A program made the position numbers and the translations under genes. Under the pieces are notes generated by a model that saw nothing but the letters and a program-made list of their open reading frames with translations, did no database searches and was not told the DNA's origin. Of a DNA stretch of 27,860 bases, positions 4,557 through 24,836 are shown one piece after another. Numbering within the stretch: position 1 is the stretch's first letter; each line of letters begins with the position of its first letter. The DNA lies in the IMG/VR virus record IMGVR_UViG_3300036716_000902, positions 1 through 27,860 of that record, one strand, 5' to 3'. Source of the DNA: a virus.

Positions 4557-5878
4557 AACTACTACCAAAACAAGAACATGCAGTATATTATTTAAAAGAC
4601 AATGAAACCAAAGAGGTTTTATATGGTGGGGCAGCAGGCGGTGGTAAGTCTGCTTTTGGTGTTTTGTGGCTTATAGAAATGTGCCAAACATACCCAGGCT
4701 CTAGGTGGTTAATGGGCAGGGCAAAGCTAAAAGCATTAAAAGAGACCACATTAAACACTTTCTTTGAGTTAACATCTAACCCAACACCAGAGAGTGATGC
4801 TTTGGGTTTGATTAGGTTAGGCATATCGGATCAATACACATTCAATGCACAAAATAACATCATATATTTCAATAATGGTAGTGAAATATTACTTAAAGAT
4901 TTGTTTCTTTATCCGTCTGACCCTAATTTTGATTCGTTAGGTTCTTTAGAGATATGTGGTGCTTTTATTGATGAATGCAACCAAATAGTCCACAAGGCAT
5001 GGCAAATAGTTTTGTCTAGGTGTAGGTATAAGCTAACAGAGTTCAATATAAAACCTAAAATGTTTGGAAGCTGTAACCCTGCTAAGAATTGGGTATATAA
5101 ACACTTTTACAATCCTAGTAAAGATGGAAGATTACCAAGGCAAAAGAAATTTATACAAGCACTTCCAACAGATAACCCTTTCTTGCCTCAGTCTTATTTA
5201 GATTCTTTACTATCTTTAGACAAGAACAGTAGAGAAAGACTATACTACGGAAATTGGGAGTACGATGATGACCCTAGTGCATTAATACATATAGATGCTA
5301 TTAACGACTACTTTAGACCTAACCACATAGAGAGAACAGGCGAAAAGTATTTAACTATGGATATTGCTCGTAAAGGAAAGGATAATACTGTGTTTAGGGT
5401 TTGGCATGGATGGGTTTGTATTTATAGATTCTCTATTGACAAAAGTGGATTGGTTGAGGTTGTTGATAAGGCAAAGGAATTACAAAGGAGATACAATATA
5501 CCATTATCTAACGTTATAGCCGATGAAGATGGTGTTGGTGGTGGTGTAGTAGATTTCTTACAATGCAAAGGTTTTGTAAACAACTCAAGAGCTTTGAACG
5601 ATGAAAACTTTAACAATCTTAAATCTCAATGTGGTTACAAGATGGCTGCAAAGATACAAGCCAGAGAAGTAGGTGAGATGGTTGCAGATAGTTCTGTTAT
5701 TGATATAGTAACGGAAGAAATGGAACAGGTAAAGCAAAAGGATATTGATAAGGATGGTAAGATAGCATTAGTATCTAAAGATATAGTTAAGCAAAACATA
5801 GGTAGGTCTCCCGATGAGTGGGATTCTATTATGATGCGTTACTGGTTTGAGTTAGCTCCAAAGTTCGGGGTTTATTAA
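4553..5878 (+). CDS. terL: Terminase large subunit (ATPase-nuclease)
   Basis: A 441-aa packaging motor. The N-terminal ATPase has Walker A GGAAGGGKS (25-33), Walker B ending in D140-E141 (GAFIDE) and a coupling motif GSCNP (172-176). The C-terminal RNase H-like nuclease has candidate metal-binding acids D270 (LTMD), D324/E325/D326 (VIADEDG) and D424 (DEWDS). Length and order are normal for a Terminase_6-type protein. It would dock on the portal, cut concatemeric DNA and pump it into the prohead using ATP. All key residues are present. It is followed by a 41-nt gap holding a promoter-like motif before the portal gene. Confidence 0.95.
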   Translation: MKLLPKQEHAVYYLKDNETKEVLYGGAAGGGKSAFGVLWLIEMCQTYPGSRWLMGRAKLKALKETTLNTFFELTSNPTPESDALGLIRLGISDQYTFNAQNNIIYFNNGSEILLKDLFLYPSDPNFDSLGSLEICGAFIDECNQIVHKAWQIVLSRCRYKLTEFNIKPKMFGSCNPAKNWVYKHFYNPSKDGRLPRQKKFIQALPTDNPFLPQSYLDSLLSLDKNSRERLYYGNWEYDDDPSALIHIDAINDYFRPNHIERTGEKYLTMDIARKGKDNTVFRVWHGWVCIYRFSIDKSGLVEVVDKAKELQRRYNIPLSNVIADEDGVGGGVVDFLQCKGFVNNSRALNDENFNNLKSQCGYKMAAKIQAREVGEMVADSSVIDIVTEEMEQVKQKDIDKDGKIALVSKDIVKQNIGRSPDEWDSIMMRYWFELAPKFGVY

Positions 5879-5890
5879 TTAATTTATAAA

Positions 5891-5903
5891 TTCGTATTTT
5901 TAC
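5891..5903 (+). promoter_or_regulatory. Promoter-like motif upstream of the portal gene
   Basis: TTCGTATTTTTAC contains TATTTTTA, a near match to the Bacteroidota -7 box TAnnTTTG, located 17 nt before the portal ATG in a 41-nt gap. The same motif recurs before other rightward genes. No TTTG at -33; the upstream bases are the 3' end of terL. Confidence 0.4.
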
Positions 5904-5919
5904 AAATAAATCTAGTATT

Positions 5920-7311
5920 ATGAAATTAGACCCTAGGACGTGGTTCAAAAATAGCAGTAGTGAAAATCAAGCAACGAATAAGTTTTACGAGCAGTTTTAT
6001 AAAATGCTAGGTGGTACTTATACATCTTATGACCCTAATAGGGTTACATACATAGACAAAGGATACAATATAAACCCTACTGTATATTCTGTAGTATCTC
6101 AAAAATCTAGAAAGTCCTCAAGCGTTCCATATTGCGTTAGAAAAATAGAAGATAAAGCAGAACATTCTAAATTAAAGATGTTCCAACGTGCTACAGGAAA
6201 CGACCTAACAATACAACAAAAAGTAAAGAAATTACTACTGGAATCTAAAGCCTACGAGGACAAAGGAGATATACCTTTCCCAATGGATAAACCAAACCCT
6301 AATCAAACATGGGTAGAGGTTATAGAGCTTTATAATACTTTCATGGATACTACAGGTAACTTTTATCTGTATATGTTTGCACCTACTGAGGGAATGAACG
6401 CAGGGCAACCAATAGAGGTTTATGTATTACCATCTCAATACACAGAGATTGTATTAAAAAACAATAGTGTTGATGTTAAGTCTATGGAAAACCCTATAGA
6501 TCATTACTTAGTTATCGTTGGTGGTTCTTATGTTGAATTTGAACAAGAAAACGTTATCCATGTTAAATTACCAAACCCTAACTTTTCAAGCAACGGAGAG
6601 CATTTATACGGTCAAGCTCCATTATCCGCTGCATTGAGAAACATACAGAGTTCAAACACTGCTATTGACTTAAACAACAAAACTCTTAAATCTGGTGGCG
6701 CTTATGGGTTGATACATGGTAAACAAACACCTTTAGCTCCAAAACAAGCTAAACAGGTAAAAGATAGATTAGTAGAAATGTCAGTGGATGAGTCTAACTT
6801 GGCTAAAATAACAGCTGTTACACATGAAATGGGATTCACTAGATTAAGCCTTACAACTGCTGAGATGCAACCGTTTGAGTATCTTAACTACGACCAAAAA
6901 CAAATATGTAATGTATTAGGATGGGATGACAAGTTATTAAATAACGATGGTGGCAGTAACTACGGAGCTTATTTAGAAACTGTTAGGAAAAGAATAATAA
7001 CAGATACTATAATGCCTAGTTTAAAGCTATTGGCTAGTGCTTTAAATGATGAGTTCCTACCTAGATTCAAAGGTTACGAGAATACAGAGTTAATATTTGA
7101 TGCTTCGGAATTACCAGAGATGCAGACAGATATGAAAGAGTTGGTTTCATGGCTTAATGATTTATTAGACAGAGGTGTTATCAATAGAGCAGAGTATAGA
7201 ATGGCTATAAACTACACAGGAACTGAACTACCTATTATGCAAGAGTACACAGTTTCTCAAAACACTATTAAATTAGAGGATGCTTTAAATGATGATTTTA
7301 ATATAGAATAA
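5920..7311 (+). CDS. Phage portal protein, HK97 type
   Basis: A 463-aa protein with the features of HK97-family portals: an N-terminal region with conserved Pro/Tyr turns (YNINPTVYSVVSQKS), a clip/stem region around LPNPNFSSNGEHLYGQAPLSA and the long helix after it (residues about 235-285). A crown region follows, with DASELPEMQ and DRGVINRAEYR near the C-terminus. It forms the dodecameric channel at one capsid vertex through which terminase pumps DNA and onto which the tail joins. Its stop overlaps the next ATG (TAATG), coupling it to the MuF-like gene. Confidence 0.9.
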   Translation: MKLDPRTWFKNSSSENQATNKFYEQFYKMLGGTYTSYDPNRVTYIDKGYNINPTVYSVVSQKSRKSSSVPYCVRKIEDKAEHSKLKMFQRATGNDLTIQQKVKKLLLESKAYEDKGDIPFPMDKPNPNQTWVEVIELYNTFMDTTGNFYLYMFAPTEGMNAGQPIEVYVLPSQYTEIVLKNNSVDVKSMENPIDHYLVIVGGSYVEFEQENVIHVKLPNPNFSSNGEHLYGQAPLSAALRNIQSSNTAIDLNNKTLKSGGAYGLIHGKQTPLAPKQAKQVKDRLVEMSVDESNLAKITAVTHEMGFTRLSLTTAEMQPFEYLNYDQKQICNVLGWDDKLLNNDGGSNYGAYLETVRKRIITDTIMPSLKLLASALNDEFLPRFKGYENTELIFDASELPEMQTDMKELVSWLNDLLDRGVINRAEYRMAINYTGTELPIMQEYTVSQNTIKLEDALNDDFNIE

Positions 7312-8129
7312 TGGGCAGGAGACAATACTATAAGAAGTGGGAAAAGTACTCTAATACTTATACTCGTAAGTCTTACCCTGAGTTTAAACGTGTTTTTAAT
7401 ACATGGGGTAAAGGCATAGACTTCACTGGACTTACAGAGAGCAGTTATAAGGCTTATCTAAATACTTACTTAAACCTAAACGAACCTCTAATGGATGAGG
7501 CTTACATGAAAGTGTACACATCTGTTGGGTTGGTACATGGTAAACGTGTTGGTGCAAGTATCAACGCACAATTAAAAAACTTTACATTTGATGAGTTTAG
7601 ATCTTCTTTTTTACGCAATATAACTACATTCTTTAATAGGTACGGTGTGTCTCGTGTTAAGTCGGTTAGAGATACTTATTTAAACGACATAATAAAGCTA
7701 TTAGATAACAGATTATCGTTAGGATTAACAATGCAAGAGGCGGCTAAGGAGGTTGAAAAGATTGTATCTAGCAATAGGTTTTATAGATGGCAGGCATTAA
7801 GAATAGCAAGAACAGAAAGCAACGCAGCGGCTAACTTCTCAGCAACACAAGCGGGGGAAGTAAGTGGTTTTGTAATGGAGAAAGAGTGGATTAGTGCGAC
7901 AGACCCAAGGACAAGAAGAAAACCACCTAATCAATTTGACCACCTACACATGAACGGCAAAAGGGTAGGGTTAAATGAGAAGTTTGTGCTTAGGTCAAGT
8001 AAAGGCACGACTGATAGGATGGAATACCCGGGAGACCCTAACGGAAGTGCTGCCGATGTTGTTAATTGTAGATGTACTGTTGCTGTTGTTCCTAAAAGAG
8101 ATGAGAACGGGGATTTAGTTAGGGTTTAA
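7311..8129 (+). CDS. MuF-like minor head protein
   Basis: A 272-aa protein with the phage Mu protein F-like domain in its C-terminal half. It shows the RIARTESN helix (about 163-170), a W-x(4)-D-x-RTR segment (EKEWISATDPRTRRK), the DHLHMNGKRV strand, a YPGDPNGSAADVVNC loop and RCTV close to the end. This domain is found in minor capsid proteins packaged with the portal and thought to help head morphogenesis or enter the host with DNA. The N-terminal half is helical and basic. No extra toxin-like C-terminal domain is fused, unlike some MuF polymorphic toxins. It is coupled to the portal by a TAATG overlap. Confidence 0.88.
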   Translation: MGRRQYYKKWEKYSNTYTRKSYPEFKRVFNTWGKGIDFTGLTESSYKAYLNTYLNLNEPLMDEAYMKVYTSVGLVHGKRVGASINAQLKNFTFDEFRSSFLRNITTFFNRYGVSRVKSVRDTYLNDIIKLLDNRLSLGLTMQEAAKEVEKIVSSNRFYRWQALRIARTESNAAANFSATQAGEVSGFVMEKEWISATDPRTRRKPPNQFDHLHMNGKRVGLNEKFVLRSSKGTTDRMEYPGDPNGSAADVVNCRCTVAVVPKRDENGDLVRV

Positions 8130-8145
8130 TCACATACAAAAATAA

Positions 8146-8157
8146 TTCGTATATTGC
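8146..8157 (+). promoter_or_regulatory. Promoter-like motif upstream of the prohead protease
   Basis: TTCGTATATTGC, preceded by ACAAAAATAA and followed by AAATAATTA, is nearly identical over some 25 bases to the motif before the tail tube gene at 17623. TATATTGC is close to TAnnTTTG. It lies 19 nt before the ATG of the protease gene, in a 47-nt gap. Confidence 0.45.
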
Positions 8158-8176
8158 AAATAATTATAGTTAAATT

Positions 8177-8887
8177 ATGAAAGGACTACAAACTAAATCA
8201 ATTTCGGGAGGATTAAAGGACTTAGACTTTAAAAACCGCATTGTTACAGGTTATTTATCGGAGACAGATACAGAGGATAAAGTTAAAGATGTTATTGTAA
8301 GTGGATCATACACAAAGACATTAAGCGAAAGAAAAGCAGATATCTATTTCCTTAACCAACATAATTGGGAACAACCTCATGGAAAGTTTAACGTGTTGCA
8401 GGAAGATAGTAAAGGATTGTATTTTGAGTCTCAGCCATTAATAGACACCAGTTATTCTAGTGATTTATTAAAGCTATATGATGCAGGGATTGTAAAAGAG
8501 CATTCTATTGGTTACCAAGTTGTAAACTCAGAAAGAGACAGCAAAGGTATTAGACATATTACAGAACTTAAACTATATGAGGGTTCTAACGTAACAATGG
8601 GAGCGCATCCTAATACACCCTTTACAGGTATGAAAGCCTTAACAGAAAAACAAATTAACGACCAAACTAAACTAATATTAAAAGCGTTTAGAAATGGCAC
8701 TTTTACAGATGAAACATTTATGTTGTTAGAGATTGCTTTAAAGCAGCTACAAACACAGTCATTTGAATTAGGTAAAAAATCACTCGATGAAAAACAAGAG
8801 CCGTTAGTAGTTAACACTCCAGAATTAGACATTGAGCCGAATAAAAAGAGTATTGAAACTATTAACGAATTTATTAAATCATTGTAA
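8177..8887 (+). CDS. Prohead maturation protease, HK97 family
   Basis: A 236-aa protein with the herpesvirus/HK97-type serine protease fold: an N-terminal strand with RIVTGYLS (21-28), candidate catalytic His-62 in LNQHNWEQPHGK, and candidate nucleophile Ser-110 in KEHSIGYQ. The GSNVTMGAHPNTPF segment (136-149) closes the domain, with Glu-135 nearby. The C-terminal 80 residues are charged and helical and may act as a scaffold tether. It would assemble inside the prohead, cleave the scaffold segment of the major capsid protein and then itself. It sits directly upstream of the capsid gene, the standard order. Confidence 0.9.
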   Translation: MKGLQTKSISGGLKDLDFKNRIVTGYLSETDTEDKVKDVIVSGSYTKTLSERKADIYFLNQHNWEQPHGKFNVLQEDSKGLYFESQPLIDTSYSSDLLKLYDAGIVKEHSIGYQVVNSERDSKGIRHITELKLYEGSNVTMGAHPNTPFTGMKALTEKQINDQTKLILKAFRNGTFTDETFMLLEIALKQLQTQSFELGKKSLDEKQEPLVVNTPELDIEPNKKSIETINEFIKSL

Positions 8888-8889
8888 AA

Positions 8890-10008
8890 ATGGAATTAAA
8901 AGAACAATTTGAAGCACTTACTGCAAAATTAGAGGGTAAGTCTTTAGAAGCAAGAAACGAAGCGTTTGCAGCGTTTGAATCAAAAATGAATGAGTCATTA
9001 GCTGGAGAAGTTAAGGCTGTAAAAGAAGCAGCAGCTGAAGAACTTAAAGCTGTTCAAGGGCACTTGGATAAATTAGATGCTAAAATGCAAGAGGCTAAAT
9101 CTAAAGAATTTGATAAAGGAGATGAGTTGAAAGGACTTATTACTAAGAACTTTGACCAAATCAAAGAAGTTAGAAACGGTAAAAATATAGAGCTTAAAGA
9201 TATGACTTTGCCAGGAAACCTTACAGGTGACCAACCAAGAGATTATAACTTTAATACTGTGATTGATCCATCTCAGAAGATTAACGTTGCTGATTTAACA
9301 GGGATGGTTTCTATTAGTGGAGGTACTTATACATTCCCTAGAGAGACAGGAAAAACAGGAGACTTTGCTACACAAGTAGAGGGGGCTAGTAAAGCACAAA
9401 TCGATTACTCTTTAGAGATGGTTGATGTAAATACTGATTTCTTAGCAGGTTTCACTCGTTATTCTCGTAAGATGAAGAACAACCTACCTTTCTTAGAGTC
9501 TTTTGTGCCTAGAGCATTACGTAGAGATTACGCTAAGAAAGAAAATGCACAGTTTTATACAAATATTGCAGCAGCGGCTACATCTTCTTCAGTTACGTCT
9601 GGTAATAAAATAGAGCGTTTAATTGCTGATATCTCAGCTTTAGAGAATACTAACTTTGATGCTAATGGTGTTGTTGTTAATGTTGCTGATTGGTGGGATA
9701 TTCAAATCACTGAAAAATCTACAGGAGCAGGCTATGGATTACCTGGTGTTGTTACTTATGAGGGTGGAGTACTTAGAATTAATGGTATTGCTATTTATAA
9801 AGCGGTGTGGGTTCCTGTAAATAAGTACATTGTTGCTGATTGGTCAAGAATCAACAAAATTGTTACTGAGGGGCTTTCTTTATCATTCTCTGACGTAGAG
9901 GGGACAAACTTTGTAGCTAATAACATTACGGCTAGAATGGAGGCACAAATTGCATTAGCAGTAGAGCAACCAGATGCAGTAATCTTAGGAGACTTTACAG
10001 CAGTATAG
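8890..10008 (+). CDS. Major capsid protein, HK97 fold
   Basis: A 372-aa protein. Residues 1 to about 75 form a long Ala/Glu/Lys coiled coil, the delta-domain type built-in scaffold that the upstream protease removes. After a linker (about 90-125) the HK97-fold body starts (DLTGMVSISGGTYTFPRETG), with E-loop and spine-helix features (TRYSRKMKNNLPFLESFVPR) and P- and A-domain strands to the end (EGTNFVANNITARME). It builds the icosahedral shell. An intrinsic terminator lies 22 nt after its stop, consistent with separate high-level expression. The cleavage site cannot be fixed by eye but should lie near residue 100. Confidence 0.93.
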   Translation: MELKEQFEALTAKLEGKSLEARNEAFAAFESKMNESLAGEVKAVKEAAAEELKAVQGHLDKLDAKMQEAKSKEFDKGDELKGLITKNFDQIKEVRNGKNIELKDMTLPGNLTGDQPRDYNFNTVIDPSQKINVADLTGMVSISGGTYTFPRETGKTGDFATQVEGASKAQIDYSLEMVDVNTDFLAGFTRYSRKMKNNLPFLESFVPRALRRDYAKKENAQFYTNIAAAATSSSVTSGNKIERLIADISALENTNFDANGVVVNVADWWDIQITEKSTGAGYGLPGVVTYEGGVLRINGIAIYKAVWVPVNKYIVADWSRINKIVTEGLSLSFSDVEGTNFVANNITARMEAQIALAVEQPDAVILGDFTAV

Positions 10009-10029
10009 TAACTGATTAAGTTTAATATA

Positions 10030-10060
10030 AAGCCTATCTATTATTTTAGGTAGGCTTTTT
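10030..10060 (+). terminator. Intrinsic terminator after the capsid gene
   Basis: AAGCCTATCTA and TAGGTAGGCTT form an 11-bp stem (one T-G wobble) around a TTATTT loop, running straight into TTTTT. It lies 22 nt after the capsid stop. Because the following connector genes lack an obvious promoter of their own, it probably lets part of the transcription through and so lowers their expression relative to capsid. Confidence 0.8.
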
Positions 10061-10072
10061 TAATATAATATT

Positions 10073-10237
10073 ATGAAAGTAATTAAACCTTTTTACTGTA
10101 TTCAATCAAAAGTATCATACAAGATAGGTGATGAGTACAAAGGAACAAGAAAAGATATAGGGCATTTGTTAGAGGCTAAAAAGAAAGCTAATAAGAAAGC
10201 ACCTATAACAAAGAAGAAAGCAATAGAGACTAAATAA
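10073..10237 (+). CDS. Small basic protein after the capsid gene, SH3-like, 54 aa
   Basis: A 54-codon gene from ATG at 10073 to TAA at 10235-10237, 1 nt before the connector gene. The product starts MKVIKPFYCIQSKVSYKIGDEY, a beta pattern I recall from the small SH3-like proteins often found just after phage capsid genes (pattern MKVxVxKPFxx...YxxGDxx). It ends in a Lys-rich tail (about residues 36-54). The tail suggests contact with DNA or with an acidic capsid surface. A head-completion or decoration role is inferred from position and pattern. Confidence 0.65.
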   Translation: MKVIKPFYCIQSKVSYKIGDEYKGTRKDIGHLLEAKKKANKKAPITKKKAIETK

Positions 10238-10238
10238 T

Positions 10239-10712
10239 ATGGCATATACAGATATAATTTCATTAAGTGATGCTAAGATATATTTAAGGATAGATGACAC
10301 GCTTACAGAGGATGACAACGATATTATTAGAATGATTAATGCGTCTTTGCGTTATGTAGAGAAATACACTAACGTTTTAGTTTATGCAAGAGACAAGAAT
10401 TATTTAGTTGAACAAGGTTTGTTAAAAGTTTATGATTACCCTATTAACACGGATTTAGATACTTTGACAGATTACACAGTAGAACGCAAGGGTTTATATA
10501 CTAATATATGTGCAAATAATACAGATACTTTTGACTTAACGCTAGATGTGGGATATTTATATTCTGATGGTGTTCCTCAAGAACTGCTAGAGGTTGCGTA
10601 TGAATTGATTGATTTGTATTACTACGGAGAAAAAGACGGCAAGCCTATTGATAAGAAGTTAAGCGAATTAAGTATAGATGCATTAAATCAAAATAAAAGG
10701 TTTTTTATATGA
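10239..10712 (+). CDS. Head-tail connector, gp6-like
   Basis: A 157-aa protein with the helical signature of the HK97 gp6/SPP1 gp15 connector family at its N-terminus: LSDAKIYLRIDDTLTEDDND, then the MINASLRYVEKYTNVLV helix. A beta segment (60-105) and a C-terminal helix pair (QELLEVAYELIDLYYYGE) follow. It would form a ring beneath the portal that extends the DNA channel and accepts the head-closure protein. It overlaps the next gene by ATGA. Confidence 0.85.
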   Translation: MAYTDIISLSDAKIYLRIDDTLTEDDNDIIRMINASLRYVEKYTNVLVYARDKNYLVEQGLLKVYDYPINTDLDTLTDYTVERKGLYTNICANNTDTFDLTLDVGYLYSDGVPQELLEVAYELIDLYYYGEKDGKPIDKKLSELSIDALNQNKRFFI

Positions 10713-11047
10713 GGTCAAGAAGTTTCAACAAAAGGATTCAGATATGGCAAACAAGCTATGTTAGTGATGGTTTTAGTGGCACAAAGACATTCGGACAAAT
10801 AATCTCTAATTCATGGGCTAAGGTAGAAACTGCCAAAAGTAATGCAAGCAACATGAATGAGATAGGTTTAGATGATATGGCTTTAAATCTGCTTATTACT
10901 GTTAGGTATAGAAACGACTTAGAATATAACGGAATCAACCAATACTTAGTATATAATGGGGTTAGATACGAATTCTCACAAGCACCTAACGAGAACAACC
11001 TAAACAGAACCTTTGTAAAACTTATTGCAACAAGACAGAAACAATAA
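10709..11047 (+). CDS. Head-tail joining (head-closure) protein, SPP1 gp16-like
   Basis: A 112-aa beta-rich protein matching the Phage_H_T_join family. It starts MRSRSFNKRIQIWQTSYVSDGFSG, has the SWAKVETAKSN strand near 38, a LLITVRYRNDL strand around 65-75, then YLVYNGVRYEFSQAPNENN and a final strand FVKLIATRQK. It would sit between connector and tail, close the channel after packaging and provide the interface for tail docking. The reading frame continues after the TAA for 44 more sense codons, see the small ORF at 11087. Confidence 0.85.
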   Translation: MRSRSFNKRIQIWQTSYVSDGFSGTKTFGQIISNSWAKVETAKSNASNMNEIGLDDMALNLLITVRYRNDLEYNGINQYLVYNGVRYEFSQAPNENNLNRTFVKLIATRQKQ

Positions 11048-11086
11048 GAGGTAGCAATACTAGAACCTATAAACCCCGATTCAAAT

Positions 11087-11182
11087 ATGTTATTTTTAAA
11101 TTACAAGAGTAGAGTTGAATCTGAGGGTGGTATTTTCGAAGCCGAACAATGCACGAAAGAATTTATACATAAACTAATTTAA
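11087..11182 (+). CDS. Small ORF in frame with, and downstream of, the head-tail joining gene
   Basis: A 31-codon ORF (begins MLFLNYKSRVESEGGIFEAE, ends HKLI) from ATG 11087 to TAA 11180-11182, 4 nt before the next gene. The Y-x-x-RV-x-x-x-GG-x-x-EA-x-x-C pattern recalls short segments I have seen in Bacteroidota phage virion proteins, so it may be a genuine micro-protein. It lies in the same frame as the preceding gene with no further stop in the 39-nt spacer. A C-terminal extension made by UAA readthrough, or a decayed remnant, are therefore alternatives. Confidence 0.45.
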   Translation: MLFLNYKSRVESEGGIFEAEQCTKEFIHKLI

Positions 11183-11185
11183 AAT

Positions 11186-11515
11186 ATGAGCCAAAGAATA
11201 ATAATGCCTCCTCAAAAAAGAGGAGATACAATAAACGGTTTTACGATACAGAATATTAAGATAGATGACGTTGACATTGATATTGACAACTATTCTATAA
11301 GAATGCAAGTTAGAGATAACTTAAATAACATTATTTTAGAGTACAACAAAGGAACAGGTATAGACAAAACAAGCGAAAACTCTATATATGTTAATAGTTT
11401 TATTATTAATGATTTAGGAAACTATAAATACGATTTGCAGTTTACAAACAATCAAGGTGTTGTTAAAACGTGGTTTTTCGGAGATATTAAGGTTCTTGAT
11501 GACGTAACTAGATAA
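11186..11515 (+). CDS. BppU_N-like beta-sandwich virion protein, 109 aa
   Basis: The product has the pattern of the N-terminal domain of baseplate upper proteins: an early KRGDTINGFTIQN strand, YSIRMQVRDN near residue 40, the NIILEYNKGTGI turn, then GNYKYDLQFTNNQG and a last strand VKTWFFGDIKVLDDVT. In lactococcal phages this domain anchors receptor-binding proteins to the virion. Here it stands alone and starts the island of surface-type genes lying between head-closure and tail-completion genes. It could be the adaptor on which the larger proteins downstream are mounted. The fold is assigned by pattern, the role by inference. Confidence 0.65.
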   Translation: MSQRIIMPPQKRGDTINGFTIQNIKIDDVDIDIDNYSIRMQVRDNLNNIILEYNKGTGIDKTSENSIYVNSFIINDLGNYKYDLQFTNNQGVVKTWFFGDIKVLDDVTR

Positions 11516-11516
11516 T

Positions 11517-11876
11517 ATGAGTAAAGTAACAGCAATAGTTGATTTAACAATACAAGAGGTAACGGCTGAATGTAGTTTAGAGACTATAAATGTGGGTTCT
11601 GAAATAGGTTTAACAACGCAAGTTGTTTCGTGTGAGTTTATCCCTACGTCTATATTAATAAACGATGATGAATGGGGTAGATACGCTTTAAACACTAAAT
11701 ACAGTATTACTACAAATGTATCTGATGGAATAGTAATACAAGGAGTAATACAGGGAGATACTTGTTATAGGTATATAACTAACTCTTTAGATGCTAACGG
11801 ATACCCTAACGAAGATTCTTTTTACAGTGATTTTGACGGAACTAATTTAACTAATTTAATAACAACAAGAGGATAA
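11517..11876 (+). CDS. Hypothetical virion-island protein, 119 aa
   Basis: A 119-aa acidic, Thr/Ile/Asn-rich protein with alternating beta pattern (VTAIVDLTIQEVTAECSL, IQGVIQGDTCYRYI) and three Cys (C19, C39, C83). No known motif. Its last part (ANGYPNEDSFYSDFDGTNL) is loop-like, as in surface-exposed structural proteins. It starts 1 nt after the preceding gene and is followed by a 63-nt very AT-rich gap (11877-11939) in which I see no gene, hairpin or clear promoter. A structural role is inferred from position. Confidence 0.55.
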   Translation: MSKVTAIVDLTIQEVTAECSLETINVGSEIGLTTQVVSCEFIPTSILINDDEWGRYALNTKYSITTNVSDGIVIQGVIQGDTCYRYITNSLDANGYPNEDSFYSDFDGTNLTNLITTRG

Positions 11877-11939
11877 GTAAACATGATATAAAATAAATAT
11901 ATATAAAAATTATATTAAATCTAACACTTAAAAAAAGCT

Positions 11940-12257
11940 ATGAAACTAAAAATTACTAACCCCACAGATTCTTTTGATATGGTGGAGATTATAGATTTTA
12001 AATACGTCGGAATACCAAGACAAAACAGTATAAAACAACTAACAATAAGAGCAATAAAATTCAAACTAAATGACGACGAAAGTTCCTCGTATTCTGATGA
12101 GCCTCCTTTTGAAATATTTATAAAGGATTTAGACGCTTATTTAGAAAGCGACCTTTTAGAAGGCAAGACACAAAGATATGGCTCTTTTGTTAGCGTAATC
12201 GAAAGCATTGGAAGTATATTAAAAGATAAATTTTCTTTAGAATATGAATTGATATGA
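11940..12257 (+). CDS. Hypothetical protein preceding the large surface protein, 105 aa
   Basis: A 105-aa protein starting with beta segments (MKLKITNPTDSFDMVEIIDF) and a central acidic Ser-rich loop (NDDESSSYSDEPPFE). It ends in helices (DLDAYLESDLLEG, VIESIGSILKDKF). No family recognised. Translation is coupled to the 754-aa gene by an ATGA overlap, so it may be an assembly factor, chaperone or attachment partner for that protein. The strand-rich first half could equally make it a small structural adaptor. Confidence 0.55.
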   Translation: MKLKITNPTDSFDMVEIIDFKYVGIPRQNSIKQLTIRAIKFKLNDDESSSYSDEPPFEIFIKDLDAYLESDLLEGKTQRYGSFVSVIESIGSILKDKFSLEYELI

Positions 12258-14518
12258 TAGGAAAACAGTACATAGAACAAATAGACCCAAACATCGCAGC
12301 AGAAGCGTTTTCTAATGGATTATTAGCACAGCTTACTTCTAATGGTGGTGTAGAGGGTGGAAACATAGGTAAAACGACTCACATTGTACTTAAAAGTACT
12401 ACAGGTATTGTTCAATTAGGTTCGGGTGGTGATGGTAACGAGGTCGTGTTTTATCAAGATGGAGATGATTTTGCTAATAACGTTGTAAAGACAAGAGTGT
12501 TTTTGTCAAAAGGTCAAGTTCATATAGAGAATGGTTGTCAAGATGGCACTGTAATAACAAGTACACAGGGTATTTGTGGAGCTTCAAGTAACGGTGTAGT
12601 AACCTCGAGTAATGTTTCCCCTATGCCGCTAGGAAATGAGGGTTTTGCAGGCAGGCAATTCTTTTTATTTGCTTTTAGAAGCTCAAACAATCCCTTATCA
12701 CAGTCAAGAGGCGAGGTTTACGTTGCAGCGGGTGCGGTTTCTTCTGAGGTTAGTTTATTGAGTGGAGACGGTCAAACCGTTGTAGATGGACCCTACACAA
12801 TACCTCCTTACGGACTAAAAACATTCTTGACCGATGGGAATAGTGAATTTCAAGTAGTAGCGTCTCAAAATGTTTTTGTAGGTATTGCTGCGAATATGGG
12901 CGCAGGAACTCCTACTTTTTATGATATGCGACTAGTTCCTCCTTTGGCAACTAATTTAATAGGTCAAAATAGAAATGCAAGACTATCGGCATTGTACGAC
13001 AATACTGAGGTTTGGTGGTATAGACAAAACGGACAGATTGGAAAATTAATCGTAAGTCCAGGTTCTCCTGTTCAGATATACAATCAAACAAGAAACCTCT
13101 TAGGAGATGTTTTTAATATTAATTCAAATACAACACCTGCAACGAGTGGAACTTTTACAATTACAGTAAACGGAGAAACAACGAGTAATATTGTTTATAA
13201 TGCAAATTCAAGTCAAATACTTACTGCCTTGTCGGGACTTGCAAGTTATAGCGAGGCTGACTTTATTGTTGAAATGACAAGAGGGGATAATTTAGGTCAA
13301 TCAAACTCACAAGCAACAATTTACTGTCAGGGTTTACTTGAAAGAGTCGTAGGTACTCCATCAATCAACAATACAAACATAGTGGGAAATTCACACGTTT
13401 ACAACCTACAACAAGCTGGTAATGTTGCTCCCAACGCAGGGAATGACGGCCTTTATTCTAAAGAAGGTGTAATTCATTTAGAAGCTAAAAACGGTGTTAT
13501 TAGTTGTCTTAGTGGAGCAGATGGTTCGGGGTTAGAAGCTACTTATTATATGCCTACGCAATCAATGACGCAAGTTGTACCTTTATATTTATGTACTACT
13601 CAATCGGGTTCGGGGGCAAGTAGTAGTATTGCAATACAATCACTTTACAAAGGTAATTTTAAAATTTACGACCAAAATAATGTTTTAAAATATTCGGGTT
13701 CTTTTGATAGAGGTATAACTGCGGATTCAGGAGCAAGACAATTAATACCTACAGGGATAACAATCGCAGGAAGTGGGCAAGACATAGCTTTTACAGAGGA
13801 CTTTTTAGGGGGGTATATTGAGTCTGATGTGCCTATAAATATAGTATTTAACTCTGACGAGAATCAGGATTTAATAACGGGAGGAATACCAACAGAGGCA
13901 GATGAGATAGTAATGTATGGAGTTACGCCAAACGATATAAGAACTGTATTTAGAAAACTATCCGATGGGTTTACCTATAAACAAGAAGTTGAAGCATTAG
14001 CAGACCCTAACCCTATTCAAGGGTTTATAGATTATAACGATACTACGGGAGCGGTGTCTTTGGTTGCTGACACTTGGACTACTATTCCGAACAATGGTGC
14101 AGGTGCTTTTAGCAATAATACTTACGCACCCAGCAACGTTAGCGATTTGATGGACGTTTCAACAGGGGAAATAGATCCAAGACAATTAGAGTTAGGCGAT
14201 ACTATATTTATACGAAATGACTACTCTATAAACCCAAACACAAATAATGCCGAGTTAGAATTTAGGTACATCTTAGGAGATGGAGCAGGAGAGTATACAT
14301 TGCAGACTACTATAGGTCGGTTAGATGATGGTTCGGGTGTTGATTATAGATTTAGCTTAAAACCCGATTTAATTTACATGGGAGACACTAATACACGAGA
14401 CAATTTAATTACATTGCAAGTAAAGTTGTCATCAAACGGAACTTTAACTAATGCAGGTAGTGTTGTGCAAGTTATAAAAGGAAACGCGAGAGGTTCGCAA
14501 AAATGGGTTAAAATATGA
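12254..14518 (+). CDS. Large multidomain virion surface protein, 754 aa
   Basis: A Gly/Ser/Thr/Asn-rich beta protein without signal peptide, typical of phage fibres and decoration proteins. Four parts can be seen. Residues 1-235 form a beta region with a VYVAAGAVSS strand and a FQVVASQNVFVGIAANMG strand. Residues 298-345 form a GTFTITVNGETTSNIVYNA module, the GxFTLxxxGxTTxxI type found repeatedly in virion proteins. Residues 395-570 form a second region that loosely repeats the first (IHLEAKNGVIS..., FLGGYIESDVPINIVF). Residues 588-754 look like a jelly-roll of the receptor-binding-head type, ending GSQKWVKI. It probably binds host surface sugars or proteins. Mounted through neck or head is suggested by gene position. 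Neighbours overlap by ATGA on both sides. Confidence 0.6.
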   Translation: MIGKQYIEQIDPNIAAEAFSNGLLAQLTSNGGVEGGNIGKTTHIVLKSTTGIVQLGSGGDGNEVVFYQDGDDFANNVVKTRVFLSKGQVHIENGCQDGTVITSTQGICGASSNGVVTSSNVSPMPLGNEGFAGRQFFLFAFRSSNNPLSQSRGEVYVAAGAVSSEVSLLSGDGQTVVDGPYTIPPYGLKTFLTDGNSEFQVVASQNVFVGIAANMGAGTPTFYDMRLVPPLATNLIGQNRNARLSALYDNTEVWWYRQNGQIGKLIVSPGSPVQIYNQTRNLLGDVFNINSNTTPATSGTFTITVNGETTSNIVYNANSSQILTALSGLASYSEADFIVEMTRGDNLGQSNSQATIYCQGLLERVVGTPSINNTNIVGNSHVYNLQQAGNVAPNAGNDGLYSKEGVIHLEAKNGVISCLSGADGSGLEATYYMPTQSMTQVVPLYLCTTQSGSGASSSIAIQSLYKGNFKIYDQNNVLKYSGSFDRGITADSGARQLIPTGITIAGSGQDIAFTEDFLGGYIESDVPINIVFNSDENQDLITGGIPTEADEIVMYGVTPNDIRTVFRKLSDGFTYKQEVEALADPNPIQGFIDYNDTTGAVSLVADTWTTIPNNGAGAFSNNTYAPSNVSDLMDVSTGEIDPRQLELGDTIFIRNDYSINPNTNNAELEFRYILGDGAGEYTLQTTIGRLDDGSGVDYRFSLKPDLIYMGDTNTRDNLITLQVKLSSNGTLTNAGSVVQVIKGNARGSQKWVKI

Positions 14519-15819
14519 GTATAAAAATATACAAAGATGTTGCTGCAAATTCTATATTTATAGAAGATAACAACGGAGCGCAGTTTATTAATAGCTTACA
14601 GGCAACTGTTCCTATCGATAAGGTAACAATAACAGACTTAGCAAGACAAATAGATTTAGTTTCTGATGTTGACCACACTGAGTTTATAGACGAAAACGAT
14701 AGTCCTTACACAGGTACGGCTACTGAGGTGTGTAATCAACTAAATGCAGTGTTCCAAAGCTCGGGAACTCCTACAGGGAACGCTCCATCTATAACAAGTA
14801 ATAACACAATAAATTTAGTTGCAGGTCAAACATTAAACTACACTTTAACTGCTGATTATGGGGTTGCTTACGAATGGGATAATCTACCAACAAGTGTAAC
14901 AACTATAGAGGGTAATGTCAGAAACATCTTAGGAGGCTCCTTACTTACGCAAGGAACTTACACGGTAACTGCAAGAGCAATAAATTATAACGGAATAGAC
15001 GAGCTTTCTATTGACATAATAGTTAGTAATCCGTCTTTTGCAAACACCAAATCTGTTCAATTTAGTCAGAATGAGTTTTTAAATGCAAACGGAGGTATAA
15101 GTCAAAGTATACTAGGAAGAAGCGGGAACGGGTCGGGTGTTTCTGATGCTTGGACTATTTCGTTTTGGTTTAAAGCAGGGTCAAGCAACAACTCAACGCA
15201 AACAATTATGTATTACGGAGGTGGTTCTGTTGCTAATGACAACGGCATACACATCTATTGGAACGGAAACAATGCAACGGCAGGCAGACAACAGCTAGTT
15301 TTTAGATACGGATCTACTAATAACAATTTAACTTTTAAAACTGCAAGTGGTACAATATCAAACAACAACGCTTGGAATCACGTTTTAATTAGTTATGATG
15401 GGGGCACAACAGGGTCTTCAAGCGCAGACATTAGTAATTATTATTCTAGATTTAAAATAAAATTAAATAACGTTTTGCAGACGACAACAAATACTCACTC
15501 TAACTATGGCAACACAACAGCACTAAACGGTTCTGTTATGGTTGTGGGGAGATATGCAACAGGCAGTGATTACATGAGGAATAACTGCAAGATAGATGAG
15601 TTAGCTATTTGGGGGTCTGATGAAAGCGCAAACAGTTCAAGCATCTACAACTCAGGACAGGCAACAGACCTAATGTCTTTGACAAACCAGCCGTCTCATT
15701 GGTGGAGGACAGGAGATAATGACACATACCCTTTTTTAAATGATAGTGGAAGCGTAGGAACAAATGTATTTTTAATGTCAAATATGACGAGCGCAGATAT
15801 TGTAAACGATGTACCTTAA
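14515..15819 (+). CDS. Virion protein with Ig-like and LamG/ConA-like lectin domains
   Basis: A 434-aa protein. Residues 1-90 form a small domain that likely anchors it. Residues 92-171 fit an Ig-like repeat (PSITSNNTINLVAGQTLNYT ... GTYTVTARAIN ... LSIDIIVSN). Residues 178-395 fit a laminin-G/concanavalin A-like sandwich: VQFSQNEFLNAN, AWTISFWFKAG, WNHVLISYDGG, FKIKLNNV and KIDELAIWGSD are its standard strands. The tail includes HWWRTGD. LamG modules in phage virions usually bind polysaccharide, so attachment to the host capsule or surface glycan is plausible. It is coupled to the 754-aa gene by ATGA and followed by a fibre-like gene. Confidence 0.75.
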   Translation: MSIKIYKDVAANSIFIEDNNGAQFINSLQATVPIDKVTITDLARQIDLVSDVDHTEFIDENDSPYTGTATEVCNQLNAVFQSSGTPTGNAPSITSNNTINLVAGQTLNYTLTADYGVAYEWDNLPTSVTTIEGNVRNILGGSLLTQGTYTVTARAINYNGIDELSIDIIVSNPSFANTKSVQFSQNEFLNANGGISQSILGRSGNGSGVSDAWTISFWFKAGSSNNSTQTIMYYGGGSVANDNGIHIYWNGNNATAGRQQLVFRYGSTNNNLTFKTASGTISNNNAWNHVLISYDGGTTGSSSADISNYYSRFKIKLNNVLQTTTNTHSNYGNTTALNGSVMVVGRYATGSDYMRNNCKIDELAIWGSDESANSSSIYNSGQATDLMSLTNQPSHWWRTGDNDTYPFLNDSGSVGTNVFLMSNMTSADIVNDVP

Positions 15820-15828
15820 AAAATAATT

Positions 15829-16740
15829 ATGGCAAACGAAATTAATATACAGTTAGACCCTTTTAATGAAACGGGGTTAATTTTATTAGGTAAAGTTTTT
15901 AATAAAAACGGAACACAACAAGGCACAAGTGTAAGTCTTACAGAAAACGCTCCTGCATTATATTCGGGAGATTTTAGTTTAGCAAGCGTAATAGATGATG
16001 CTTACTTAGTTAGGTTTGAAACAAATTTACCAGATAAACTTTACGGAACAGGTGTTTTGTACGTTAGAAACAACGCAGAGGTGTCACAAGAGAACTTTTT
16101 TAACTCTACTCTTGATGAGGTTGTTACCGATGTAGCGAGTAGAAACGCAAGTAAGGCTGATGTAAGTGGACTATCTACTTTTGACGCAGGAACAGAATCA
16201 GTAATAACAGATACAGAAAGCAGAAATGCAAGTAAGGCAGATATTAGTTCGATTGAAACTAAGACCGAGGCAGATGCAAGACAAGTTATATTGATAAACG
16301 AGCATAACCAAACGCAAACAGACATATCAAACTTAAACGACTTTGACCCTGTAAATGATGATGTTGCAAAAGTTAATTTAGTTGATGTTACCACTACTAA
16401 CTCAGATATGAGGGGAACAGACAACGCTAATACAGTTGTACCAGACAATCTTGGAATAACACAAATACAAACAGACATCTCAAACCTTAACGATGTTAGT
16501 GCTTCTGATGTTTATACAGAATTTACCTCAGGAACCAATGAAAATGCATTTAAGGCTGATGTAAGCGGTTTAAGTACTTTTGACCCTGCTACTGATGTTG
16601 TAACTACGGATAATGCTAGTAGAGAAGCAAGTAAAGCTGATGTTTCAAGCTTAGCGACTAAAGACAATCAAGACATTATAAATGATGGTGTAAAAAAATC
16701 TAGTTTAATTATACCACATACAGATAATTTACCAGATTAA
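15829..16740 (+). CDS. Repeat-rich fibre-like virion protein, 303 aa
   Basis: Residues 1-90 form a compact beta domain (INIQLDPFNETGLILLGKVF ... YLVRFETNLPDKLYGTGVLYV). The rest is built from degenerate repeats: R-N/E-ASKADVS occurs at 105, 132 and 265, with a further KADVS copy at 242. VSGLSTFD occurs at 112 and 245, and TQTDISNLND-like units at 162 and 214. TNSDMRGTDNANTVVPDNLG (190-209) matches a repeat unit I recall from marine phage fibres. Such repeats form trimeric shafts. It would be an extended fibre, perhaps carrying the neighbouring lectin-like proteins. The repeats are also visible in the DNA, so copy number could vary by recombination. Confidence 0.65.
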   Translation: MANEINIQLDPFNETGLILLGKVFNKNGTQQGTSVSLTENAPALYSGDFSLASVIDDAYLVRFETNLPDKLYGTGVLYVRNNAEVSQENFFNSTLDEVVTDVASRNASKADVSGLSTFDAGTESVITDTESRNASKADISSIETKTEADARQVILINEHNQTQTDISNLNDFDPVNDDVAKVNLVDVTTTNSDMRGTDNANTVVPDNLGITQIQTDISNLNDVSASDVYTEFTSGTNENAFKADVSGLSTFDPATDVVTTDNASREASKADVSSLATKDNQDIINDGVKKSSLIIPHTDNLPD

Positions 16741-16742
16741 AT

Positions 16743-17183
16743 ATGAAGTTAACAGCGAAAATATCGGGTACGAACGCTCTATTAAAGAAGTTTGATAAGT
16801 TTGGGAAAGCTGGTGAGAAAGAGGTAGAGTCTCTTACCCGATTAGCTGCTAACGAGATAGAGGCAGAGGCTAAAAGGTTAGCACCTGTTGATTTAGGAGG
16901 GTTGAGGCTATCCATAACCAGAGAAGAAGTCTCTAAATTAGTGCAAACGGTTGTTGCGTATGCTCCATATTCTGCTTTTATGGAGTTTGGAACAGGTGGA
17001 TTAGTTTCTATACCTAGAGGATGGGAGGCAATGGCTGCTCAATTTAGAGGTAAAGGAATAAAGAAAATAAACTTAACACCAAAACCTTTTTTGTACCCAG
17101 CATTTAAGAAAGGTGGTAAGATGTATAGAAAAGACCTTAAAAAGTCGTTAGAAATATTAATAGATAAATTTAATAAACAATGA
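16743..17183 (+). CDS. HK97 gp10-like tail completion protein
   Basis: A 146-aa protein of the HK97-gp10_like family. The N-terminal strand-helix (LTAKISGTNALLKKFDKFG) leads to the long helix LTRLAANEIEAEAKRLAPVD with the family's characteristic LAPVDLGGLRLSI segment (64-76), then AYAPYSAFMEFGTGG (80-94) and a C-terminal PKPFLYPAFKK. It takes part in joining the finished head to the tail tube. It starts 2 nt after the fibre-like gene and overlaps the next gene by ATGA. Confidence 0.88.
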   Translation: MKLTAKISGTNALLKKFDKFGKAGEKEVESLTRLAANEIEAEAKRLAPVDLGGLRLSITREEVSKLVQTVVAYAPYSAFMEFGTGGLVSIPRGWEAMAAQFRGKGIKKINLTPKPFLYPAFKKGGKMYRKDLKKSLEILIDKFNKQ

Positions 17184-17664: not shown

Positions 17665-18108
17665 ATGTCAACATTTATTAAAGGAGAGGGTTTGATACTT
17701 TACGTATGGGATTCTAGTATTTATAGACCTATCGCCTGCCTAACTTCTAATAGTTTATCGCAGACAAAAAACATCATTGAATCTCAGACTAAATGTGATC
17801 CTAGTGTAATCATTAAAGATAGTGGTTCTACTACTTACGAAATATCTTTCGAGGGTCAATATATTGACACTACATCTGTTGGTGCTGAGGTTACAAAGGC
17901 TTCACACGATTACTTATTAAGTATTTTCACAGATACAGATAAAAAGACGTGGAAGATGGACACGGGGTTAGCTGATAATGTAGCTTATTATGGTGAGGGA
18001 ATCTTTAGTGATTTGTCTTTAGATGCTGCTGCTGGTGATGAGCTAGCTACTTTTAGCGGTACTATCGCAGGAAGCGGGGTAGTTTCAACTACAGATCCTA
18101 ACGAATAA
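17665..18108 (+). CDS. Major tail tube protein, TP901-1 type
   Basis: A 147-aa protein with the TP901-1-like tube pattern: FIKGEGLILYV at the start, a PIACLTSNSLSQTKN strand-turn (22-36), TYEISFEGQYID around 67-78, then a C-terminal sandwich DLSLDAAAGDELATFSGTIA and a SGVV end. It would polymerise in hexameric rings around the tape measure to form the flexible tail. The protein at 22785 is a paralogue (shared P-[IV]-[AG]-CLT-x-NS and the C-terminal FSG-x-I-x-G). Preceded by its own promoter-like motif. Confidence 0.85.
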   Translation: MSTFIKGEGLILYVWDSSIYRPIACLTSNSLSQTKNIIESQTKCDPSVIIKDSGSTTYEISFEGQYIDTTSVGAEVTKASHDYLLSIFTDTDKKTWKMDTGLADNVAYYGEGIFSDLSLDAAAGDELATFSGTIAGSGVVSTTDPNE

Positions 18109-22784: not shown

Positions 22785-23246
22785 ATGAGTGATTACATAA
22801 ATGGAACATATAAAGTTTTAAGCATTAAGGTAGATAAAAACTATCTGCCTGTTGGGTGTTTAACGGATAATAGCTTTGAAGAATCTGTTGATATGCTAGA
22901 TACTACTGTTAGAACAAACGCTAACGGTTGGCGAAGTAGCAGACCGATAACGCAAAGTTATAGTATTTCTTTTAGTGGTTTAGTTACTGCCGATTCCTTA
23001 ATATCTGGTATTTTAACTTATAACGATTTAAGAAATATAAAACGAGGTAGGCAGTTAATAGAATGGAAGATATCAGCAGATGTTGGTGCAGATGAGTACG
23101 GAAGTGGATATATAACAAATCTTAGCGATACAGCTCCTTTAGATGATTTTGTTTCTTTTAGTGGTGGTATTGTTGGGGTTGGTGAACCTACTGTAAACCC
23201 CAATATAGAAGGTGCTTTAGATGAAGAACTAAATTTTGAATTATAA
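22785..23246 (+). CDS. Second tail tube-like protein (paralogue), 153 aa
   Basis: A 153-aa protein sharing landmarks with the tube protein at 17665: PVGCLTDNSFEESVDM (compare PIACLTSNSLSQTKN), TQSYSISFSGLVTA (compare TTYEISFEG), and FVSFSGGIVGVGEP (compare LATFSGTIAGSGVV). It therefore has the same TP901-1 tube-like fold and probably arose by duplication. Located after the hub gene and before the fibre, it is more likely a tail-tip ring or fibre adaptor than a main tube subunit. An acidic tail (EGALDEELNFEL) is absent from the tube protein. Preceded by a promoter-like motif. Confidence 0.75.
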   Translation: MSDYINGTYKVLSIKVDKNYLPVGCLTDNSFEESVDMLDTTVRTNANGWRSSRPITQSYSISFSGLVTADSLISGILTYNDLRNIKRGRQLIEWKISADVGADEYGSGYITNLSDTAPLDDFVSFSGGIVGVGEPTVNPNIEGALDEELNFEL

Positions 23247-23255
23247 AAATATATT

Positions 23256-24836
23256 ATGTCAGATAGAATAAATTACGATGATAAAGTTGCTTTAAACGAT
23301 AAGCAAGAAATAGCGGAAATAAACAAGCATACTGCTGAAAATGACAACGAGATTAAATCCGTTGTCAACTCACACGCTGACGACATAGAGGCTAATCAAG
23401 TGGCTATACAATCGAATCAGGTAGCTATACAATCTATATCAAGCGGTCAAGGAGATGCTTTTGAGACAAGGGCTTTAGCGATGGTTTCTCCTGGTGCTGA
23501 TAACGTGCCTTTTGTTGTTTACGGAGAATCTGGGTTTAATGGACAGTATAGATATTTAGCGTCTGACCCAAATGGATATGTTTTGATTTATTTATATTTA
23601 GAATCAACAAACACAGTAGAGAAAGATAGTAGTAAAGTGGTTGAGAGCGGGTCTGTCTTTTCTGAATTAAACAACACTTATTCTGAGTTTGAACTAATAA
23701 ATGACGAGAACGATGTAACCCCTATTGACCTAACTATTAATTCTTTGGTTAATGGTTCTTTTAATATAACAAGAGGTAGAACTTATCCATGGATATTGGT
23801 AGACACTGATAAATACGAGTTTGTGTTGAATGGAAATTCTAAATACCTTGTTATAGGGTATGATTCTGATTCTGTTTTAGCGGTAACTTTAGATAGTAGT
23901 GTTAACTCTTGTAGGATTTTTAGATTTACTAATTCAGACGGGATATCTGGTGTTGTAACTAATCTTCCAAATAATTTATTCACCAACGGCTCTACTATCA
24001 CCGCTTATAGAGTAGGTACAGTTTTAACTATATACGAAGAACAAACGCTTAAATTTACTTATGATTATTCTATTAGCTCAGAGCCAGAGTTCTCTAATCC
24101 ATCTTTCGGTAATGTGTTTACAGCTGATGGCAACGTATTAACAGGTGTAAAAACCTCTTTCGAAAGTTCTGAAAATAGACTAGAAAGGCTAGAAAACGAG
24201 GTGTTTGGAGCAACGGATACTACCGAAATGCAAGGAGAGAAAATGGCAGATGTTGGGGATAGTATTATGGATCAAAACGGAATGCAGCCTATAATAATAA
24301 GTAGGTTTGGAATTGCGTCTAATCAGTCTTTAGCTGTTAGCGGCAAGAAATTTGTAAGCGGCGACCCTGATAGTATAACAGAGCAAATACAAAACATAAC
24401 AAACGACCCTAAACTAATATTAATTGGTGGAGGTACTAATGATTTTGGTTATAGTTCTCCCCTAGGTAATATAGGAAGCTCTGATACAACAGAGTTTTAT
24501 GGAGCTGTTAATTTTGTTGCAGATTACGCAACTACTAACTACCCAAATGCTAGGATAATAGCTTTGACGCTTCCTTTTGGGGATTGGCAAACAGCAGGAG
24601 GATTTGCACAAGGTCAAACAAATAGTTTAGGTTTGTCGAGATATGAATACGAAAAAGCACAAATAGAAGTTTATAGGAATTACGGAATAAGGGTTGTTAA
24701 ACAATTATCTGAACTAGATTGGAATTTAATAAACATAGACGTAAAGACATATGACAGAGTACACCCAAGCACAGAGGGAAGCGAAGATAGAGCTAATGCT
24801 GTTTCTGATGCTATAAACAAAGAGTTTAGTAGTTAA
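23256..24836 (+). CDS. Tail fibre with C-terminal SGNH/GDSL hydrolase domain
   Basis: A 526-aa protein. Residues 1-62 are helical with coiled-coil character and a short repeat (NQVAIQSNQVAIQS), likely the trimeric attachment. Residues 63-300 are beta-rich. A short coiled coil (302-316) leads to an SGNH hydrolase: block I GDSI with nucleophile S336, G363 as candidate oxyanion Gly (block II), block III GGTND with N395, and block V D500-RV-H503. All four catalytic blocks are present, so it should be an active esterase, probably removing acetyl groups from a capsular or surface polysaccharide during adsorption. This is the presumed receptor-degrading fibre at the tail tip. Confidence 0.85.
   Translation: MSDRINYDDKVALNDKQEIAEINKHTAENDNEIKSVVNSHADDIEANQVAIQSNQVAIQSISSGQGDAFETRALAMVSPGADNVPFVVYGESGFNGQYRYLASDPNGYVLIYLYLESTNTVEKDSSKVVESGSVFSELNNTYSEFELINDENDVTPIDLTINSLVNGSFNITRGRTYPWILVDTDKYEFVLNGNSKYLVIGYDSDSVLAVTLDSSVNSCRIFRFTNSDGISGVVTNLPNNLFTNGSTITAYRVGTVLTIYEEQTLKFTYDYSISSEPEFSNPSFGNVFTADGNVLTGVKTSFESSENRLERLENEVFGATDTTEMQGEKMADVGDSIMDQNGMQPIIISRFGIASNQSLAVSGKKFVSGDPDSITEQIQNITNDPKLILIGGGTNDFGYSSPLGNIGSSDTTEFYGAVNFVADYATTNYPNARIIALTLPFGDWQTAGGFAQGQTNSLGLSRYEYEKAQIEVYRNYGIRVVKQLSELDWNLINIDVKTYDRVHPSTEGSEDRANAVSDAINKEFSS

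Follow-up and report, generated by a model that had tools for sequence, protein, structure and literature searches.

The six open genes at positions 11186 to 16740 of the window, the 27,860-base viral record analyzed here, lie between the head closure gene (Hc1) and the gp10-like Neck1 gene (Ne1) and are probably (we would put it at roughly 80%) an exchangeable host-recognition module that is carried on the virion and swapped as a block into the Hc1-Ne1 junction. Searches for host-range determinants in marine Bacteroidota phages usually turn to the tail tip. In cultured relatives, however, no structural gene varies more than the one between two neck genes, and host-range prediction and annotation should also include this Hc1-Ne1 slot, a second site, evolving on its own, at which these phages alter their attachment.

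Structural genes of the window run in the order TerL, portal, Mu-F-like protein, protease, MCP, head-tail adaptor (Ad1), Hc1, the island, Ne1, and a tail completion-like gene, followed by the MTP, two small genes, the TMP, a hub-like gene, a second MTP-like gene, a GDSL fiber, and lysis-type genes, with some of these names assigned by position and relatives. The left flank consists of Ad1 (10239 to 10712; phrog_40, E 9e-9) and the 112-aa Hc1 (10709 to 11047; PF05521, Phage_HCP, 28.8 bits against a cutoff of 25), and the right flank is Ne1 (16743 to 17183; PF04883, E 9e-11; phrog_5, E 1.9e-19). These flanking genes, the island genes with their domains, and the tail-tip fiber gene are on the forward strand. 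The six island reading frames described in a first-pass annotation were recovered intact, tightly packed and with several 4-base overlaps. Among annotated phages, the closest portals are those of Cellulophaga phage phi10:1 (51%) and, next, of Flavobacterium phage 11b (43%), so the window is likely to come from a flavobacterial siphovirus. A megablast search of the island region against known phages returned no match, and promoter and terminator scans of the island gave no excess over shuffles and no sign of separate transcription.

The ordinary attachment site is also in place. As the first-pass annotation had it, a tail-tip fiber is encoded at 23256 to 24836, and it carries an SGNH/GDSL hydrolase-like domain (Lipase_GDSL_2, E 1.3e-7, slightly under the cutoff) and matches the tail fiber family phrog_5240. 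The same kind of domain sits inside the slot fiber of Cellulophaga phage phi18:1 (L084, 12115 to 13920) rather than at the tail tip. The window also encodes two tail-tube-like proteins of one family, phrog_1407 (17665 to 18108 and 22785 to 23246), the second after the hub-like gene.

The first island gene (11186 to 11515) encodes a 109-aa protein, predicted to be a beta-sandwich, that we propose as the anchor. It matches phrog_1084 (E 6.6e-12) and gives a confident AlphaFold2 (AF2) model (pLDDT 87.9). A likeness to BppU_N is suggested at the level of fold only, as Pfam BppU_N (PF10651) finds nothing in the window, this protein included. The model matches mostly unnamed 105- to 120-aa phage proteins, along with a phiM12 protein named BppU_N-containing in BFVD (TM 0.72) and a baseplate chain of mycobacteriophage Douge in the PDB. 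The next two genes, for a 119-aa linker-like protein (11517 to 11876) with profile matches in relatives and a 105-aa protein (11940 to 12257) conserved with the module in L002, L003, and L004 (L numbers denote loci compared with the window), matched no known family. At the place of the 119-aa protein, L002 and L004 have a collagen-like stalk, and in L056 such a stalk is fused to the TNF-like knob.

The 754-aa fiber protein (12254 to 14518), which has full-length relatives in L002 to L004, had been described as multidomain; a confident model was obtained only for residues 590 to 741 (pLDDT about 96), the rest being mostly poorly modeled. This part, a knob domain placed at residues 590 to 742 (14021 to 14479), is predicted to be a jelly-roll of the TNF/C1q type. 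Foldseek matched it to the tail needle knobs of Sf6 (3rwn) and HS1, the N-terminal lectin of BC2L-C (2wq4), and the PLTL lectin (9ib7), with E values of about 3e-5 to 1e-4 and target TM scores of 0.46 to 0.60, a likeness of fold at only 10 to 14% identity. Matches to the IBDV capsid had better E values and were set aside, since they spanned more than 310 columns at an rmsd of about 26 Å and extended over residues modeled with low confidence.

Immediately downstream, a 434-aa lectin-like protein (14515 to 15819) contains a LamG/ConA-like domain at residues 210 to 368 (15142 to 15618; Laminin_G_3, PF13385, 35.1 bits against a curated cutoff of 27.6). The LamG assignment in the first-pass annotation is thereby upheld, and the accompanying Ig-like domain is plausible from sequence. 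The idea that the N-terminal domains of the lectin and the knob protein are the same was dropped for want of a significant match. The last island gene (15829 to 16740) encodes a 303-aa fiber with a conserved N-terminal 117 aa and a variable region whose repeats, reported earlier, are real.

At the core of the island is a conserved two-gene cassette, a TNF-like-knob protein followed by an Ig-LamG lectin, that recurs across unrelated marine phages. The C-terminal 150 or so residues of the 754-aa protein were found in 83 open reading frames. In 74 of these, a gene related to that of the 434-aa protein comes next, at a distance of -3 to +5 bp, and in 7 the second gene is a different one. Searching from the lectin side placed a knob gene directly upstream in 55 of 56 testable new loci, the exception (L183) being a fiber fused to the lectin. 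Certain loci overlap, having been cut from a single contig; a count by sequence gives 108 distinct pairs, making this a conserved but unnamed element with more than 100 distinct copies in phage contigs. The knob domain and the lectin gene are missing together from L002 and L004, and in L056 the anchor is followed by linker, collagen, and knob as one reading frame and then by the lectin. From this pairing of genes, we suggest that knob and lectin may be in contact. Among the papers searched, none described a phage cassette of LamG and TNF-knob genes or a neck fiber in flavobacterial phages. A search of a genome collection with the lectin gave only four matches, on short MAG contigs, which we read as viral contamination of no use for assigning a host.

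What precedes the knob is specific to each phage and includes tail-tip adaptor types (L148 and L096), a slot adaptor (L090), and collagen stalks (L056, L208, and L222). Across phages, the pair lies after the MCP, the portal, or a P22-gp10-type Hc3, before the TMP, or near the tail end. A distant version, annotated as hypothetical and cadherin-like, lies between Ad1 and Hc1 in Vibrio phage 1.063.O (gp25-gp26; L171, 12565 to 15356). Where the pair comes straight after the gene for the major capsid protein (L005, L188, and L027), it brings to mind head fibers borne on the capsid, like phi29 gp8.5 or the RcGTA spikes, instead of a neck collar; RcGTA head spikes bind host capsule, and capsid-first contact has been proposed for HFTV1 (PMC9973310). 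In the window's own group, however, no such pair turned up downstream of the capsid gene, the inserts lie among the connector genes, and no capsid-binding domain was identified in the island, leaving a capsid site improbable.

The interruption of the standard gene order noted in the first-pass annotation is not a matter of chance. Among the 66 loci that contain both Hc1 and Ne1, drawn from a capsid-based search, other fetched loci, and annotated phages, the two genes abut or overlap (gap of -76 to +4 bp) in 56, phi10:1 included; most contigs are fragments, so counts are lower bounds. Synteny in relatives thus has the slot mostly empty and otherwise filled with fiber- or adhesin-type genes. Inserts longer than 300 bp are present in the window, L002, 11b, L012, phi18:1, L120, L092, and L160, and islands that run off contig ends are present in L004, L087, L089, L090, L094, L106, and L159. 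The inserts differ widely, and collagen, LamG, SGNH, fiber repeats, and a marginal beta-helix mark them as fiber- or adhesin-like, a type judged by eye, with several of the genes belonging to no family.

Other structural junctions receive different cargo. Adhesin-type inserts occupy 8 of 65 Hc1-Ne1 junctions compared to 4 of about 582 junctions elsewhere among the structural genes (L034, L163, L165, and L168), for a Fisher P value of 2.5e-6 that is to be read with the relatedness of the loci and the by-eye typing of inserts in mind. Homing endonucleases, glycosyltransferases, and small open reading frames were found at the MuF-protease and MCP-Ad1 junctions, and the protease-MCP and Ad1-Hc1 junctions surveyed had no insert longer than 300 bp. 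By sequence motif, the Mu-F-to-protease genes of L103, L122, and L127 resemble GIY-YIG-type homing endonucleases. L168 has an empty Hc1-Ne1 junction and a repeat fiber like the 303-aa protein just 5' of its protease gene (204 to 1058), a second insertion site.

Several comparisons catch the slot in the act of exchange. L087 is 99.5% identical to positions 5507 to 11186 of the window, a match of 5,681 bases that stops exactly at 11186, the first base and codon of the island; beyond that breakpoint, where the window has its anchor block, L087 goes directly to a 264-aa knob protein and a lectin. L090 and L094 are about 96% identical to L092 to the left of the slot and differ from it within the slot after the adaptor, and to the right, L090 again matches L092 at about 96% over the 51 bases available. 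The whole block encoding the 119-, 105-, 754-, 434-, and 303-aa proteins is reused in L003, a phage in which most of the head genes have no match in the window. In Flavobacterium phage 11b, genes 30 to 33 begin with an anchor of the 109-aa family in the same slot and continue with fiber-like genes, without the knob-lectin pair. Taken together, the Hc1-Ne1 island behaves as a recombining, exchangeable host-recognition module that is separate from the tail-tip fiber. Upstream of the breakpoint, Hc1 of the window ends at a TAA where L087 reads GAA and runs 45 residues further, to 157 aa, and the 138-bp gap between Hc1 and the island corresponds to the remainder of that longer gene (window, 11045 to 11185; L087, 5541 to 5681).

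Cultured Cellulophaga phages of the genus Helsingorvirus, only distantly related to the window, display the same behavior and make the role and place of a slot product directly testable. Portal, MCP, Ad1, Hc1, Ne1, tail, and tape-measure proteins of phi12:1, phi17:1, and phi18:1 are mostly 93 to 100% identical over aligned residues, whereas their slot proteins are 23 to 27% identical over full length, which makes the slot gene the most variable structural gene among cultured relatives; phi12:3 and phi18:2 match their siblings. Only the collagen stalk and an adaptor with the sequence ERSxxxxETTxGANTAERVGG are kept, and the tips differ: SGNH plus LamG in phi18:1, a repeat-rich region in phi17:1 that to the eye resembles a beta-helix, and in phi12:1 a different domain, accompanied by one additional gene. 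The slot gene of these three phages therefore joins a conserved N terminus to exchangeable carbohydrate-active tips, and in the window module, the conserved N terminus is that of the 303-aa fiber. Like the island, the Helsingorvirus "tail fiber" gp50/gp52 fills the Hc1-Ne1 slot with an exchangeable-tip fiber, ending in LamG in phi18:1 gp52; unlike the island, it is one collagen-stalk protein with an ANTAxRVG adaptor and without a BppU_N-like anchor, accompanied in phi12:1 by one extra gene. The slot is not the sole variable site, as Helsingorvirus hub and tail-tip genes vary too (58 to 89% in some pairs). The hub-like gene (L257 to L260 and L084) is 66% identical between phi12:1 and phi17:1 or phi18:1 and 99% identical between the latter two, a second recombination tract.

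The slot product gp52 of phi18:1 has been detected by mass spectrometry in free virions, with modifications at R23, K108, and R580 (PMC13288928, Table 3). The rest of the free-virion list comprises the portal, minor capsid protein, MCP, connector, and structural protein gp59, together with two hypothetical proteins, gp09 and gp16, so the purity of the sample is not certain (PMC13288928). Such a detection speaks against the view that the island is cargo with no place on the virion, a moron or decaying genes in the operon; being optional and absent from most relatives would suit that view, but the fiber, lectin, and collagen domains, the long intact reading frames, and the near-obligate pairing make it highly unlikely. 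Very probably, the module is on the virion. The first-pass annotation had proposed a second attachment apparatus with glycan-binding domains, and this part is supported by a slot that takes only fiber- or adhesin-type genes, by the highest structural variability in cultured relatives, and by the presence of one product in free virions.

We propose that the small BppU_N-like protein would be the module's anchor, from which the linker proteins and the 754-aa fiber would project, ending in the knob, which a single-chain model predicts to be TNF-like and which would be trimeric. At or near the knob, the 434-aa Ig-LamG protein may bind host glycans, and the 303-aa repeat protein would form a second fiber. 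Recombination of the block into the Hc1-Ne1 junction would then let this recognition site evolve separately from the tail-tip fiber.

Where on the virion the module may sit is a separate matter. The first-pass annotation had read a neck, head, or collar site from gene position, and we rejected position as proof of a neck location because the knob-lectin pair occupies many genome positions in other phages, because a module of anchor, collagen, and fiber lies at the tail-tip end in three empty-slot relatives, and because the TP901-1 neck-passage gene ORF51 lies after the baseplate genes (PMC4493119). The neck-passage structure (NPS) of lactococcal 936 and TP901-1 phages, which has a BppU-like ring, a stalk, and exchangeable CBM, beta-helix, or esterase-CBM tips, resembles the island and its slot in its stalk, its exchangeable tips behind a conserved N terminus, its optional occurrence, and, going by the predicted model, perhaps its BppU_N-like anchor fold (PMC6669499). 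It differs in being one polypeptide (BppU_N, three-helix coiled coil, and CBM) instead of six separate genes. In the island, the tip would combine a TNF-like knob with LamG; stalks of relatives are of the collagen type, and a place at the neck is a proposal. Points in favor of a separate site such as the neck are the concentration of inserts at connector genes, the slot adaptor described below, and the precedent of the NPS with its BppU_N-like anchor, and we lean slightly, at about even odds, toward a neck or collar appendage that works like the NPS. A broader proposal, in which flavobacterial siphoviruses devote the recombining Hc1-Ne1 junction to a second host-recognition organelle mounted at the neck and in which TNF-knob plus Ig-LamG is a plug-in tip widespread among unrelated marine phages and fitted to whatever adaptor they use (neck, tail tip, or podoviral hub), we hold tentatively, at just short of an even chance.

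The products could instead be tail-tip or side-tail fibers that are encoded early and join the tail-tip apparatus, with Hc1-Ne1 being just a spot where the late operon tolerates insertions. This is a serious possibility, though one we place somewhat below even: L096, L148, and L252 (the same record as L104) fuse the same knob domain to adaptors of the tail tip, Muminvirus tooticki has it at its tail tip, BppU belongs to the baseplate, and the slot-empty relatives mentioned above (L116, L148, and L139) have the BppU_N-like anchor, collagen or linker, and fiber at the tail-tip/lysis end. It fits less well with the concentration of adhesin-type inserts at Hc1-Ne1 or with the adaptors. Slot fibers of phi12:1, phi17:1, phi18:1, L089, L090, and L092 have a common adaptor that is unlike those used at the tail tip within that phage group (hhalign probabilities of 6% and 0.2%) and matches a small protein whose gene comes after the one for the major tail protein (87%); the window island has the BppU_N-like anchor and not this adaptor. 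In ten relatives, a 143- to 172-aa protein whose gene separates the major tail gene from the tail gene that follows (for example, L098, 10090 to 10539; L148, 9006 to 9455; and 11b gene 37) starts with a slot-like adaptor and is a candidate for a small appendage on the same dock.
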